From Campylobacter gracilis (lineage in GTDB: Bacteria; Campylobacterota; Campylobacteria; Campylobacterales; Campylobacteraceae), in assembly GCF_001190745.1 (NCBI RefSeq), contig NZ_CP012196.1, positions 310,001-374,000 on the forward strand: DNA of 64,000 bases, in the 5' to 3' direction. The notes beneath the pieces are model-generated. The model ran no database searches and had not been told where the DNA came from. It saw nothing but the letters and a program-made list of their open reading frames with translations. Every line of letters starts with the position of its first letter. Position 1 is the first letter of the stretch. Of this stretch, positions 50,136-55,108 are shown in pieces. The translations under genes were made by a program, and so were the position numbers.

Positions 50136-50711
50136 ATGCTAGATCTAATTTTAAGTTATTTTACGAGAAGTACGTTTATTACGATATTCGTACTTTCTTG
50201 GCTATCCGTCTATTTTGTCGTTACTTTTACGATTTTGATCTCCAGATTTGTAGGGCTTAGTGCGTGGCAACACCGCGAAGCAAAGGCACTCGAATCCTTG
50301 CTGATGGGTGGTAGGATTTCGCTTTCGGGCTCTATTTTTCAAAAAGTAAATACCGATAAAATTTCAAAAGAGGCCTTGGAAATTTATAAAGGCAAAGCCG
50401 AACGCGACTCCACTAGCGGACTTACCTGGCTATCTATCGTTGCCTCTACTTCGCCATTTATCGGGCTATTTGGTACGGTTGTTAGCATACTTCACACATT
50501 TTCCAAGCTTGGCGGCGGAAATTCCGGCATCGACACCATCGCTCCTGCGATCAGCGAGGCGCTAGTTGCCACAGGATGTGGAATTTTTGTAGCGATCCCC
50601 GCATACACCTTCAGCTTACTTATAAAACGCAAAGCATACGAAGTTATGAGCATTATAAATCGTACAGCGGATATTTTGCTATTTAAAGCAAATACTGGAA
50701 AAGCTATTTAA
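50136..50711 (+). CDS. tolQ: MotA/TolQ/ExbB proton channel protein
   Basis: A 191-residue inner-membrane protein with three helices (about 12-34, 108-130, 145-168). The MotA/TolQ/ExbB signature is WLSIVASTSPFIGLFGTVVS followed by AISEALVATGCGIFVAIPAY. Placement before exbD-like, tolA and tolB shows it powers the Tol-Pal system, so it acts as TolQ (C. jejuni calls it ExbB). Its stop overlaps the next start by one base. Confidence 0.93.
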   Translation: MLDLILSYFTRSTFITIFVLSWLSVYFVVTFTILISRFVGLSAWQHREAKALESLLMGGRISLSGSIFQKVNTDKISKEALEIYKGKAERDSTSGLTWLSIVASTSPFIGLFGTVVSILHTFSKLGGGNSGIDTIAPAISEALVATGCGIFVAIPAYTFSLLIKRKAYEVMSIINRTADILLFKANTGKAI

Positions 50712-51109
50712 TGTATAATTTCGACGAAAATCCAGAGCTAAATATCACTCCGCTCGTCGATATTATGCTTGTTTTGCTAGCGATTTTAATGGTCGCACAA
50801 ACGGCGATTATCTACGATGAAAAGATCGAACTGCCTAGTGGCTCAAAAGCACAGGTTTCGGAAAATACCGCGGAATTCTTGCTTGTGCGTATCGGCGAAG
50901 ATCGCAAGGTTTATATCGATAAAAGCTCGATGAGTCTGGCAGAATTCCCGGATAATCTCGTGCTGCTTAAAGGCACCGGCAAGTATAGCTTGGAAAAACC
51001 CGTCTATATCCAAGCCGATAAGAGACTCGTTTATGACGATGTAATGTTTGTCTTAAAGAGCTTAAAGCAAGCGGGTTTTACTAAAGTCGCGCTTCAAACA
51101 AATGGCTAA
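50711..51109 (+). CDS. tolR: TolR/ExbD-type biopolymer transport protein
   Basis: A 132-residue protein with a short cytoplasmic N-terminus, one helix (about 12-34, with the essential Asp in LNITPLVDIMLVLLAILMVA) and a periplasmic domain. The Asp17-type residue takes part in proton flow with TolQ. Starts in the tolQ stop codon and overlaps tolA by eight bases, so all three are co-translated. Confidence 0.93.
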   Translation: MYNFDENPELNITPLVDIMLVLLAILMVAQTAIIYDEKIELPSGSKAQVSENTAEFLLVRIGEDRKVYIDKSSMSLAEFPDNLVLLKGTGKYSLEKPVYIQADKRLVYDDVMFVLKSLKQAGFTKVALQTNG

Positions 51110-52082
51110 TTATTCAAATTTTACGGGGGTTAAATACGATAATTTCAAATCGTTTTTAATCGCCCTTTTTGCCTATTTGCTGGTGATTTTTGTTCTTTTA
51201 TATCAAATTTCAAAGCCGCAGGAAAAATTTAAAAAATATACTGACAATCCCAACGATTATATGGATGTTACTTTTGATTTCGAAATAGATGATAAACTTC
51301 CGTCCGCGCCTGAAATCGCTAAAGAAACAAAGCAAGGCGAGTTTGACAATAAGAATGTGAAGGATGTGCCGGAGGATAAAATTAAGACTACGGCGCAAGT
51401 AGTTCCGCCATCTCCGGTGGAGGCAAAGCCGAAAGAGCCCGAAAAGCCGAAGGAAGAGCCGAAGCCGGAACCTAAAAAGGACGAGCCTAAAGCTGAGCCC
51501 AAAAAAGAGGAGCCCAAGCCTGAGCCTAAGTTGGAAGATAAACCTTCCGAAAAAGTAGTAGAGAAAAAAGAGGAAGCTAAGCCGGAGCCGAAAAAAGAGG
51601 AAAAACCGAGCTTGAGCGATCTTTTTTCGGATACGACTAAGGACAATAAGAAGCTTGAGGAGAGTGCTAAAGCTAGCGACGCCGTTCAGAGTAACAAAAA
51701 GTCCGATAAAGAAACCGCCACCTCTAGTGCTAAGGATAAAGCGGCATCTAAAAATGCTGTCGTCAAATCCGATAAGCTTGGCGGCAGGACGCAAAGGACG
51801 GGCGAGTATAACGCTTATTACGGCGCTATCGAGAAGAAGCTTCAAGTTCTATGGAGCAGATATGTGGCGACCGCGAAGGACGACGCAAGGATTAAGATAG
51901 TCTTTAGCGCAGATGGGCGAGTAGCGGATTATACTATTATAGAGTTGGGGCGAGAGACTGAATTTAACCAGAAGTTGCGAGATTTTTTGGATAATCTATC
52001 GACTCAGACTTTCCCGAAGTCTCCCGACGGAGCGTCGCATGAGATTGATACTAGGATGTCCGACGTGATGAAGACAAATTAG
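51102..52082 (+). CDS. tolA: TolA/TonB-type energy-transducing protein
   Basis: A 326-residue TolA-like protein linking the inner-membrane TolQR motor to TolB-Pal. A cytoplasmic N-terminus precedes the single helix at about 19-38 (LIALFAYLLVIFVLLYQI). A long linker (about 105-175) made of KPEPKKEEP-like repeats follows, then a Lys/Ser/Ala-rich stretch. The C-terminal domain (about 230-326) has YYGAIEKKLQVLWSRY and DGRVADYTIIELGR, ending near FPKSPDG. This domain is closely copied by the next gene. Corresponds to Cj0111. Confidence 0.9.
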   Translation: MANYSNFTGVKYDNFKSFLIALFAYLLVIFVLLYQISKPQEKFKKYTDNPNDYMDVTFDFEIDDKLPSAPEIAKETKQGEFDNKNVKDVPEDKIKTTAQVVPPSPVEAKPKEPEKPKEEPKPEPKKDEPKAEPKKEEPKPEPKLEDKPSEKVVEKKEEAKPEPKKEEKPSLSDLFSDTTKDNKKLEESAKASDAVQSNKKSDKETATSSAKDKAASKNAVVKSDKLGGRTQRTGEYNAYYGAIEKKLQVLWSRYVATAKDDARIKIVFSADGRVADYTIIELGRETEFNQKLRDFLDNLSTQTFPKSPDGASHEIDTRMSDVMKTN

Positions 52083-52100
52083 AATTCGTAAGGGAAAAAA

Positions 52101-52496
52101 GTGAAGAGACTTTTTTGTATTTTTGCGTTTTGCTGTATGCTTTTTGCGGCGGATTTGGAACAGAATTTTATTTATGAAAGAAATTCCGTTTCGCAAAAAT
52201 CTGGTAAAATTAAAATTTCAAAGGAGTTAGATACTTATTTTTCGCAGATGACGTCGAAATTACAAACTCTATGGACGGAGTATCAAGTAGGCATTTCCGA
52301 TGAAGCTAGAGTTTGCGTAGAATTTAGCACCGATGGACGAGTGACAGATTATCAAATTTTAGAGCTTGGGCGTAGCACAGAATTTAACCAAAAGCTAAGG
52401 AAATTTTTAGATGAGCTTCCTAAGCGAAGCTTTCCAAAATCACCGGATAATAAATCTCACACATTTGAAATGGTATTATCCGACGTAACAAATTAA
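52101..52496 (+). CDS. Stand-alone secreted TolA C-terminal domain (paralogue)
   Basis: A 131-residue protein with its own signal peptide (residues 1-17, LFCIFAFCCMLFAAD) and no linker or membrane anchor. The mature part copies the C-terminal domain of the preceding TolA: SKLQTLWTEY, STDGRVTDYQILELGRSTEF and NQKLRKFLDELP...FPKSPD align one to one with TolA segments. It therefore looks like a duplicated TolA domain III released into the periplasm. It could bind TolB or Pal and modulate the system, or be a decoy for bacteriocins or phage. The start is GTG/ATG ambiguous; the frame begins at the GTG at 52101. Between tolA and tolB, same operon. Confidence 0.85.
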   Translation: MKRLFCIFAFCCMLFAADLEQNFIYERNSVSQKSGKIKISKELDTYFSQMTSKLQTLWTEYQVGISDEARVCVEFSTDGRVTDYQILELGRSTEFNQKLRKFLDELPKRSFPKSPDNKSHTFEMVLSDVTN

Positions 52497-52511: not shown

Positions 52512-53759
52512 ATGAAGAAACTACTTTTGATTCTTGCATTTTGTAGTAGCATTTTCGCGGCAGATGCGACTATGTCTATCGTAAACGAAGGGGTAAATCT
52601 ACCTAAAATCGTCGTTCAAGATGCATCGAACCTTGCGAATTCAGAATTTGGCAACAAATTCTTTAAACTTATGGTGGGCGATCTAAAGGTCGGCGCGACT
52701 TTTGAAGTCAGCGACGAGTATCTACAAAGCAGCTACGATGCGGACGCTTCCAGCAATTCGGGTTCTAGCGGTGCCGCTCTTATCGTGCGCTACGCGGTAA
52801 GTGATAAAAGTTCGCCGATGAGCCTAAAAGCCAAAGTGCTCGAAGCAAACAGCGGCAGGGTGATGTACGAGAAGAGCTTTACGCTTTCAAATGCCGAGAA
52901 ATATCCGTTTTTAGCCCATATGGCGGTATCTGAGATCGTCAAGCAGCTAGGGTACTCAAACGTCGATTGGATGAAGGAGATGATTTTGCTCTCTCGCTAC
53001 ACTTCGACGCGCGAGAGCGAGATCATGGTGGCTGACTATACGCTTACCTACCAGCAGGTGGTGCTTCGCGGCGGATTAAATATCTTCCCTAAATGGGCAA
53101 GTGCAGCACAGAACGAATTTTATTACACCTACTATGTCAATAAAAACACCCCCGCTATCTATAAATTTAATCTATCCAACGGTAGCAAAAGTAAAATTTT
53201 TACCGGTCACGGCATGACGATAGCTTCAGATGTAAGCGCCGACGGCAGAAAGCTTTTAATCACCAATGCGCCTAAAGATCAACCCGATATTTATTTGTAT
53301 GATATAGCCTCGGGCAGCGCTAAGCAAATTACCGATTACGCTGGCATTGATGTAAATGGAAATTTTATCGACGGCGATTCGCGCGTGGCTTTTGTGAGCG
53401 ATCGTCTGGGTTATCCAAACGTATTTGCCACTAGCATAAATGGCGGCAACGTTCAGCAGCTCGTCTATCACGGCAAAAACAATAACTCCATCAGCACAAA
53501 TGGCAATTACGTTACTTACTCCAGTCGCGATGGCGGGGGCGGATTTAATATATATTTAATCTCTACTCAAACCGATATGATACGCCAGTTAACGGCTAGC
53601 GGCAAAAATATGTTTCCTAGATTTTCTAGCGATGGCGGCAGCATTATGTTTATCAAGCAAGACGGCAGCGGAAGCTCGGTAGGTATTATCAGAGTTAACG
53701 AGAATAAAAGTTTTCAATTTCCGTTAAGAGTGGGTAAAATTCAATCGGTTGATTGGTAA
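52512..53759 (+). CDS. tolB: Tol-Pal system protein TolB
   Basis: A 415-residue periplasmic protein that connects TolA with Pal. The signal peptide ends at SSIFAAD (about residue 17). An N-terminal alpha/beta domain (20-160) is followed by a six-blade beta propeller with WD40-like PD40 units: ADGRKLLITNAPKDQPDIYL, GDSRVAFVSDRLGYPNVFAT and SDGGSIMFIKQDGSG. AAGGAGAAAAG precedes the ATG. Length and order of domains are standard. Confidence 0.96.
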   Translation: MKKLLLILAFCSSIFAADATMSIVNEGVNLPKIVVQDASNLANSEFGNKFFKLMVGDLKVGATFEVSDEYLQSSYDADASSNSGSSGAALIVRYAVSDKSSPMSLKAKVLEANSGRVMYEKSFTLSNAEKYPFLAHMAVSEIVKQLGYSNVDWMKEMILLSRYTSTRESEIMVADYTLTYQQVVLRGGLNIFPKWASAAQNEFYYTYYVNKNTPAIYKFNLSNGSKSKIFTGHGMTIASDVSADGRKLLITNAPKDQPDIYLYDIASGSAKQITDYAGIDVNGNFIDGDSRVAFVSDRLGYPNVFATSINGGNVQQLVYHGKNNNSISTNGNYVTYSSRDGGGGFNIYLISTQTDMIRQLTASGKNMFPRFSSDGGSIMFIKQDGSGSSVGIIRVNENKSFQFPLRVGKIQSVDW

Positions 53760-53814: not shown

Positions 53815-54288
53815 ATGAAACATTTAGTTTTATCTTCGATAGCAGTTGCTGCTCTATTATTGAGCGGTTGTTCTAAAAAGACCCCAGAGGCCGATACTAC
53901 AAGCACAAGTGGTGCAGATAGACTAGCTGCTTTGGCATCTCAGATCCAAAGTGAAGTTGGCACTGTTTATTTCGACTTTGATAAATTTAATATTAGAGCC
54001 GATCAGCAAGGCACAATCAATAATAACGCAGCTCTATTCAACCAAGCAGGCGCAGAGTCCCTAACCGTCAAAGTTGAGGGTAACTGCGATGAGTGGGGTT
54101 CTGATGAGTACAACTATGCTCTTGGTCTAAAGAGAGCTACTGCAGCTAAAGACGCATTGGTTGCTCAAGGCGTAAATGAGAGCAGAATTTCCGTAGTAAG
54201 CTACGGCGAGAGCAATATGGCTTGCACAGAGCATTCTAAAGAGTGCGACGCTCAAAACAGACGCGACGAATTCAAAGTTGGATTCTAA
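53815..54288 (+). CDS. pal: Peptidoglycan-associated lipoprotein Pal
   Basis: A 157-residue outer-membrane lipoprotein (Omp18 of C. jejuni). The lipobox is LLLSGC, Cys19. The OmpA-C domain (about 45-157) has VYFDFDKFNIRADQQGTI, EGNCDEWGSDEYNYALGLKR (diaminopimelate-binding) and a C-terminal Cys pair (MACTEHSKECDAQ). It anchors the outer membrane to peptidoglycan and binds TolB. Confidence 0.97.
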   Translation: MKHLVLSSIAVAALLLSGCSKKTPEADTTSTSGADRLAALASQIQSEVGTVYFDFDKFNIRADQQGTINNNAALFNQAGAESLTVKVEGNCDEWGSDEYNYALGLKRATAAKDALVAQGVNESRISVVSYGESNMACTEHSKECDAQNRRDEFKVGF

Positions 54289-54289
54289 T

Positions 54290-55108
54290 TTGAAATTTAA
54301 AAATTTCACGGTGGCGGCTCTTTTGGGGGCTGCCACTTTTTTAAATGCAGAAACTTCTGCATTTGATGCTGGCAATATTGATTCAGGTAGCTCTTACGGG
54401 TTAACTGAAAACGAACAAGTATTACGCGATAACCGCAAGCGTATAAGCGAGATGCAAACTAGTGTAGATAATACACGCGAGAGCGTCGAAGGTTTGCGAA
54501 GCGTCCTTGAAGGAACAAGTTCTAAAATTTCGAACCTGGAAAACAGGGTAGCGGATCTAGAAATTCGTACTACGGGCAAAAGCCAAGGCAACAGCGAGCT
54601 AGATCAGATGAAACGAGATATCGCAACTATAAAAGCCCAAATCGCTGAAATTAATAAAAAATTAGGTAGCGGCAGTAGCGTAAAAAAAAACGCTGAATTA
54701 GACGCAGGCACTGCTTCAGTCCCTGCTAGTACAAAATCAGACTCCGATTTTAAATCAAAAGATCAAGCTTCAGTATTGAAAGAGGCTGACACTTTATATG
54801 CCAAAAAAGACTATTCCGGCGCAAAAGAGCGCTACAATTATCTAGTATCCAAAAATTACAAGCCCGCAAAGGCAAACTATATGCTGGGCGAAATTTCATA
54901 TTTCTCCGGCTCATACGCAGAAGCGATAAACTATTATAAAAAGAGCATCTCGCACAACGAGAGCCAAGACTACACTCCAAAGCTACTTTATCACACCGCG
55001 ATCAGCTTCGATAAGATCGGCGATAAAGACAGCGCAAATAAATTCTACAAAGCGTTAAAGGCTTCATACCCAGATTCCAAAGAAGCTAAAGCCGCGCCCG
55101 CTAGATAA
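54290..55108 (+). CDS. cpoB: CpoB/YbgF-type TPR coordinator of Tol-Pal
   Basis: A periplasmic protein of the YbgF/CpoB family. Start is probably TTG 54290, just after the pal stop, giving a clean signal peptide (KFKNFTVAALLGAATFLNAE); a TTG at 54278 would add four residues. Residues 40-125 form the trimerising coiled coil (ISEMQTSVDNTRESVEGLRS). The C-terminal TPR part (about 160-270) has AKKDYSGAKERYNYLV, YMLGEISYFSGSYAEAINYY and DKDSANKFYKALKASYPDS. In E. coli CpoB coordinates outer-membrane constriction with cell-wall synthesis. Confidence 0.92.
   Translation: MKFKNFTVAALLGAATFLNAETSAFDAGNIDSGSSYGLTENEQVLRDNRKRISEMQTSVDNTRESVEGLRSVLEGTSSKISNLENRVADLEIRTTGKSQGNSELDQMKRDIATIKAQIAEINKKLGSGSSVKKNAELDAGTASVPASTKSDSDFKSKDQASVLKEADTLYAKKDYSGAKERYNYLVSKNYKPAKANYMLGEISYFSGSYAEAINYYKKSISHNESQDYTPKLLYHTAISFDKIGDKDSANKFYKALKASYPDSKEAKAAPAR

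Follow-up and report, generated by a model that had tools for sequence, protein, structure and literature searches.

A predicted secreted, anchorless TolA domain III protein encoded between tolA and tolB of Campylobacter gracilis, and its possible role as a decoy

Gram-negative protein bacteriocins are imported by two engines, TolA and TonB, and filamentous phages use TolA as their inner co-receptor. According to the literature, the direct partner of TolA domain III (TolA-III) is TolB and not Pal (PMC7391070). TolB, colicin N and the phage protein g3p use one common strand-addition site on TolA-III, and changes at this site block all three; the affinity of TolA for TolB is weak, about 40 μM in E. 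coli (PMC4339652). Periplasmic pIII-N1 in E. coli decreased phage uptake by 4 logs and gave resistance to colicin A, which was ascribed to sequestration of TolA (PMC10424213). When TolA-III is made as a free domain in the E. coli periplasm, periplasmic proteins leak out (PMC6195910, with reference to Wan and Baneyx), so that the free domain can interfere with Tol function. The engineered TolAIII used there, a signal sequence followed by domain III, is an artificial equivalent of the gene described here, but it is an overproduced construct for obtaining leaky cells and not a natural gene.

This gene, orf131, is located in a window of 64,000 nucleotides from a C. gracilis genome of 2.28 Mb in one contig. 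All positions below are those of the window, and the features of the locus are as follows.

50136..50711, plus strand: tolQ (ExbB/TolQ family)
50711..51109, plus strand: tolR (ExbD/TolR family)
51102..52082, plus strand: tolA, 326 aa, inner-membrane anchored
51780..52079, plus strand: TolA domain III, nearest within-genome relative of the orf131 domain (BLASTP, tree)
52090..52094, plus strand: ribosome-binding sequence AAGGG of orf131 (sequence)
52101..52496, plus strand: orf131, 131 aa, GTG start, predicted secreted, anchorless TolA domain III protein
52512..53759, plus strand: tolB
53815..54288, plus strand: pal
54278..55108, plus strand: cpoB (ybgF)

The gene order is atpC-tolQ-tolR-tolA-[orf131]-tolB-pal-cpoB, with gaps of 18 nt between tolA and orf131 and of 15 nt between orf131 and tolB, and AAGGG is placed 6 nt 5' of the GTG. 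No terminator-like site was found on the plus strand of the tolA-tolB interval, and orf131 is apparently co-transcribed with tolQRA and tolB. By eye, a TTTACA/TACAATT-like promoter sequence was seen in the tolA-tolB gap of several relatives (L003, L008-L013); window positions 52083-52100, 5' of orf131, do not contain it. TolB of the window was named from gene order, its PD40 repeat and its likeness to relatives, as PF04052 (TolB_N) had matches elsewhere in the genome but none on this protein. Its mature N-terminus, ADATMSIVNEG..., is the segment expected to bind TolA-III by analogy with the interaction described in PMC7391070.

The first-pass annotation had described a nearly end-to-end alignment of orf131 with the C-terminus of TolA. 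This was borne out by BLASTP, in which residues 34-129 of orf131 matched residues 227-322 of the window TolA with 48 of 96 positions identical (E 5e-34), a match that excludes a chance ORF. All three motifs that had been quoted, (S/A)DGRV(A/T)DY, LGR(E/S)TEFNQKLR and FPKSPD, were found in orf131, and Pfam TonB_2 (PF13103) scored above its curated cut-off in both orf131 (30.4 bits) and TolA (27.6 bits). The protein was divided into the following parts.

52101..52151, plus strand: predicted signal peptide, about residues 1-17 (MKRLFCIFAFCCMLFAA), without lipobox (sequence, hydropathy)
52152..52217, plus strand: short linker, about residues 18-39, predicted disordered (pLDDT <50 over model residues 1-21)
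52200..52487, plus strand: TolA domain III homology, residues 34-129, 50% identical to the own TolA (BLASTP, model, Foldseek)
52458..52481, plus strand: last strand HTFEMVLS, residues 120-127 (model strand 103-110)

The N-terminus (MKRLFCIFAFCCMLFAAD) has two positive residues, an 11-residue hydrophobic core with a mean Kyte-Doolittle value of 2.9 and small residues at the likely cleavage site, and it resembles the signal of the neighbouring TolB. Judged by rule, the n-, h- and c-regions of a signal peptide are present, in agreement with the signal peptide proposed earlier, and the protein is presumably secreted; a lipoprotein was dismissed, since there is no lipobox. With a signal-like N-terminus followed by a short linker, orf131 does not have the transmembrane anchor by which TolA contacts TolQ and TolR, and with 131 aa in all it also lacks the periplasm-spanning domain II. 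Thus it has the domain, predicted fold and ancestry in common with TolA domain III (PF13103 in Campylobacterales, PF06519 in enterobacteria), but differs from TolA in its own predicted signal peptide, the loss of transmembrane helix and domain II, and an altered domain II/III junction.

An AlphaFold model of orf131, built with seven sequences, had a mean pLDDT of 77, with most of the domain at 76-91, and its elements H-E-E-H-E correspond to the helix-strand-strand-helix-strand fold of TolA-III and the TonB C-terminal domain. The best PDB match of the model in Foldseek was 2x9a_B, TolA-III bound to g3p of phage IF1 (E 1.9e-3, probability 1.00). TonB C-terminal domains followed, those of H. pylori and P. 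aeruginosa being among the top matches, and entries of CTXphi pIII-TolA, colicin A-TolA and TolB peptide-TolA were also retrieved. TonB shares superfamily and fold with orf131, but by its phylogeny and its gene neighbourhood orf131 belongs with TolA. The strand HTFEMVLS is probably the counterpart of the edge strand of E. coli TolA-III that is bound by TolB, g3p and colicin N (PMC4339652, PMC7391070). The PADLOC-DB 2.0.0 defence models matched neither orf131 nor the scanned mobile copies described below, and an NCBIfam search with orf131 gave no lead.

A second domain III match was present in one of the 14 genomes of the genus, namely that of the window (G000); the second match in G008 was merely the signal peptide of TolB. 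The usual order, tolA directly followed by tolB, had been given in the first-pass annotation and was confirmed: the 13 other genus genomes had no second domain match, and in the family loci that were read tolB stood close behind tolA. C. gracilis was represented by one genome. In searches of 150 and 152 genomes of the family one further case was detected, G148, in which a 107-aa domain III protein with a signal peptide is encoded between tolA and tolB and its stop overlaps the tolB start. The searches of genus, family and order rule out a common Campylobacter gene missed by annotation. Two other frames were rejected: the match at G044:C1:252735, taken as a third case in the Campylobacteraceae, is actually TonB beside ExbB/ExbD and reads as two frames, and a 75-aa frame of G449, whose assembly is fragmented, appears to be incomplete. 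The G044 locus itself (L049:1387-2484) is an ExbB-ExbD-TonB cluster in which TonB is split over frames of 126 aa and 109 aa.

In the tree of both domains, orf131 fell within the clade of C. gracilis and G011 TolA (support 100/98), while the free copy of G148 grouped with its own TolA lineage (99/98). Trees uniting orf131 with the G148 copy were rejected by the AU test (p-AU 0.002), as was a single origin for all free domain III copies (p-AU 0.0003). The placement of a free copy in the tolA-tolB interval therefore most likely arose at least twice independently.

A profile search across the order, covering 399 genomes, led to family f9, which we take to be probably Arcobacteraceae, and all 104 genomes of this family were searched. 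Free domain III genes, all PF13103-positive, were found in G461 (two genes), G507, G510, G516, G518, G456 and G547. In G461 (L060), G507 (L064) and G516 (L066) the gene comes immediately after that of a CI-type repressor, the two either overlapping or separated by 3 nt. The integrated elements in which they lie are related to one another and measure roughly 10-13 kb. Besides an endolysin and a holin-like gene, which they share, a tyrosine integrase, a CII-like gene and a collagen-like fibre occur in one or another of them. In the G456 element the integrase is related, at 49% identity, and the free domain III is accompanied by a CI-like gene and an Mrr-type nuclease.

L060:2436-15644, L061:8324-19089, L064:426-10643 and L066:3283-14306: small integrated phage-like elements of family f9 with CI/CII-like regulators
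L063:12917-14145: free domain III of G456, then an Mrr-type restriction endonuclease gene (PF04471)

The scanned structural-looking proteins of L060 had no clear assignment in PHROGs or Pfam, and one of them gave no tblastn match in the phage collection; the elements are possibly an undescribed temperate virus group. In two copies the last 12 residues were closer to host TolA than the rest, with 83% identity for the first copy of G461 (53% overall) and 75% for that of G507 (49% overall). Two genes of the family were seen outside recognised mobile elements: a secreted domain III protein of G518 is encoded beside a riboflavin-synthesis-like gene (L067:1388-1792), and a lipoprotein of G547 near secDF/leuS-like genes (L068:6303-6728). 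No lead was obtained by tblastn of orf131 and the prophage copies against phages and plasmids, by a scan of genome contigs with orf131 or by a scan of viral contigs with a prophage copy.

With E. coli TolA-III as query one phage record was matched, the lambdoid coliphage mEp460_ev081, which encodes a 142-aa domain III lipoprotein between Q and the lysis genes (holin/lysozyme). The protein belongs to phrog_5772, an entry without function, and is called 'cell envelope integrity protein TolA' by PGAP. Among 5,426 complete E. coli genomes, 886 contained DNA of this gene, in almost all cases on the chromosome, and the two copies that were read were both in prophages. Like orf131, phrog_5772 is a free domain III predicted to be sent across the inner membrane, and it has kept the last strand, LDFKP; unlike orf131, it has a lipoprotein signal, a host-like enterobacterial domain and a separate origin, and it is phage-borne. 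In one E. coli prophage (L080:6001-6975, NZ_CP033250.1) two free TolA domain III genes are adjacent; the annotation marks one of them as an incomplete TolA pseudogene, yet this 429-nt gene equals that of mEp460_ev081.

Among plasmids, 749 records matched free TolA domain III, and a 123-aa lipoprotein form was present in 379 records at at least 99% identity. The small plasmids that were read carried colicin E3-like or pore-forming bacteriocin genes alongside the domain. On Klebsiella cloacin/klebicin plasmids the domain III gene (WP_001237044.1, annotated as TolA) is overlapped by the next one downstream, which codes for a free and secreted TonB C-terminal domain (PF03544), so that both bacteriocin import systems are represented, and the pair lies on the strand opposite the bacteriocin-lysis operon.

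L079:2756-3489 (NZ_CP090466.1): two-gene overlap, TolA domain III lipoprotein and secreted free TonB C-terminal domain

The free TonB domain gene occurred in 422 records, with an identity of at least 99% in 346, and most of the 379 Klebsiella plasmid records pair it with domain III. WP_001237044.1 is a free domain III like orf131, about 47% identical to E. coli TolA-III, but differs in being a lipoprotein, in the TonB domain that follows and in its location on bacteriocin plasmids. On the plasmids L073, L074 and L076 the free domain III lies beside or near a gene for an Exc2-family lipoprotein, and the two may form one exclusion module. In the mobile copies too, the domain II/III junction was the least conserved part.

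The account to which we incline, with slightly less than even confidence, is that orf131 acts as a decoy. By this account the domain III of the host tolA was duplicated and joined to a predicted signal peptide, and the product would place a soluble TolA tip in the periplasm. This tip has kept the last edge strand and the core where ligands bind, has neither inner-membrane anchor nor periplasm-spanning domain and has an altered domain II/III junction. As the likeliest step, it would rival anchored TolA in binding those proteins that attach to domain III by strand addition. The selected benefit would be that orf131, as a molecule which the motor cannot pull, soaks up invading TolA-binding proteins, namely the pilot proteins of filamentous phages and Tol-dependent bacteriocins. 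Temperate phages and bacteriocin plasmids would then carry, in their free domain III genes, the mobile equivalents of this chromosomal gene. Such a mechanism is proposed tentatively; binding, competition and protection by orf131 are suggested by analogy with its relatives. In the pIII-N1 precedent a free periplasmic domain blocks the contact between TolA and its ligand and gives resistance to phage and colicin; there the ligand titrates TolA, whereas orf131, as a copy of TolA, would titrate the ligand. Taken with the common strand-addition site, the reverse arrangement, in which a free TolA tip detached from the motor would take up the docking segment of the invader, follows naturally from this precedent. 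As excess TolAIII makes E. coli leaky (PMC6195910), the dosage of a free domain III must be limited.

Free copies in phages and bacteriocin plasmids of unrelated bacteria indicate that a recurring decoy against TolA-grabbing invaders may exist. The repressor-linked copies, and the TolA and TonB domains together on bacteriocin plasmids, are the company that would be expected of a decoy, and the independent copies on elements, coliphages and plasmids make a strong circumstantial case for a decoy of bacteriocins or phage coat proteins. Points against it are that the enterobacterial copies are lipoproteins and that in coliphages the gene is flanked by Q and the lysis genes, a position that may lead to late expression and is compatible with a lysis role. 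The analogy with the mobile copies is also indirect, because orf131 lies in the core chromosomal tol operon and off mobile elements. In addition, the genomes with a free domain III were neither enriched for nor depleted of Zot genes of filamentous-phage assembly in the small sample of the genus and family f9. The window's genome has a Zot gene (G000:C1:1445833-1446450), so that an inovirus has been in the lineage, but 7 of the 13 other genomes of the genus have one too; in family f9 it was found in 1 of the 7 genomes with free domain III versus 18 of 104 overall.

Instead of being a decoy, orf131 may equally tune TolA-TolB traffic, rivalling energised TolA for the N-terminus of TolB and thereby adjusting Pal mobilisation as a brake or buffer. 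The position immediately before tolB in the tol operon, with short gaps and no terminator found between the genes, is what such a modulator would have, the independent G148 copy occupies the same place, and the leakage described in PMC6195910 fits interference with Tol. Its near-absence from the genus (13 of 14 genomes without it) and the family (all but two of about 152) argues, however, that there is no general regulatory need for orf131, and buffering would need high levels because the affinity of TolA for TolB is weak. Tuning also leaves the carriage by phages and bacteriocin plasmids unexplained, and this mobile carriage favours a decoy over a brake or buffer. Altogether we regard tuning as less likely than a decoy. 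Of the first-pass reading, the free and presumably secreted TolA-III, the unusual gene order and the absence of decay have thus stood and the decoy has gained circumstantial support, while the brake or buffer, still plausible, gained no such support.

Less probable still is that domain III weakens the outer membrane as a dominant negative on Tol and so aids lysis, release of phages or bacteriocins, or vesicle formation. The coliphage copies between Q and holin/lysozyme, the plasmid copies on the same plasmids as colicin lysis genes and the release of periplasmic proteins by TolAIII expression would all suit this role. In the f9 elements, however, the gene is behind the repressor, where expression in the lysogen is expected, and the Klebsiella copy and the bacteriocin-lysis operon are on different strands, while the free TonB domain with which this copy is paired has no obvious lysis role. 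For orf131 itself the location in the tol operon leads one to expect constitutive expression.

A decaying or neutral duplicate without function, a possibility raised in the first-pass annotation, is improbable, and we are highly confident that orf131 is a real, selected gene. Between orf131 and TolA, pS was 0.80 (saturated) and pN 0.36. In a neutral simulation at K = 0.7 substitutions per site, 28% amino acid identity was left and the chance of no stop in 96 codons was 1%, compared with the observed 50% identity and an open frame. As synonymous sites are saturated and yet the frame is open and the core conserved, orf131 is not a decaying duplicate; it also has its own predicted signal peptide and ribosome-binding site. 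In favour of decay are the GTG start, the occurrence in one genome, a branch longer than that of TolA (0.72 versus 0.42) and the lowest GC3 (0.31) of the 60 window ORFs of at least 100 aa (median 0.52), which could be due to drift, to a low level of expression or to transfer by way of a more AT-rich relative. With G011 TolA, the nearest relative, as outgroup, orf131 had 16 unique changes and TolA 8, a difference that was not significant (chi2 2.67). Nine of the 16 were at residues 37-52, the N-terminal domain II/III junction, where TolA proteins share TG-Y---G and orf131 has lost T40, G41 and G48, while the core and last strand were better kept; the domain was thus retained and its former domain II junction relaxed. 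That orf131 is a new structural Tol partner with its own ligand, such as a periplasmic or peptidoglycan protein, and unrelated to parasites, is very improbable: the altered junction suggests a changed interaction surface, and the end of domain II of E. coli TolA binds CpoB (PMC8928145), but orf131 has no conserved new motif, and the low conservation of the junction in phage and plasmid copies as well is consistent with simple loss of the tether.

Returning to the decoy, free TolA domain III and the free TonB C-terminal domains of plasmids may form a convergent class of periplasmic receptor decoys, with which temperate phages, bacteriocin plasmids and a few chromosomes would titrate the docking segment of TolA- or TonB-dependent invaders; like the mechanism for orf131, this class is a tentative proposal. 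A search of the open-access literature found no description of free TolA or TonB domain decoys; a plasmid TolA is mentioned in passing, without function, in PMC10269471. Annotations of E. coli and Klebsiella list the free domain III as housekeeping tolA, either whole or as a fragment. If the proposal is true, unanchored tip-domain decoys would be a form of exclusion absent from the defence catalogue that was searched (PADLOC-DB 2.0.0), and roughly every sixth complete E. coli genome and hundreds of Klebsiella plasmids would already carry such a decoy.
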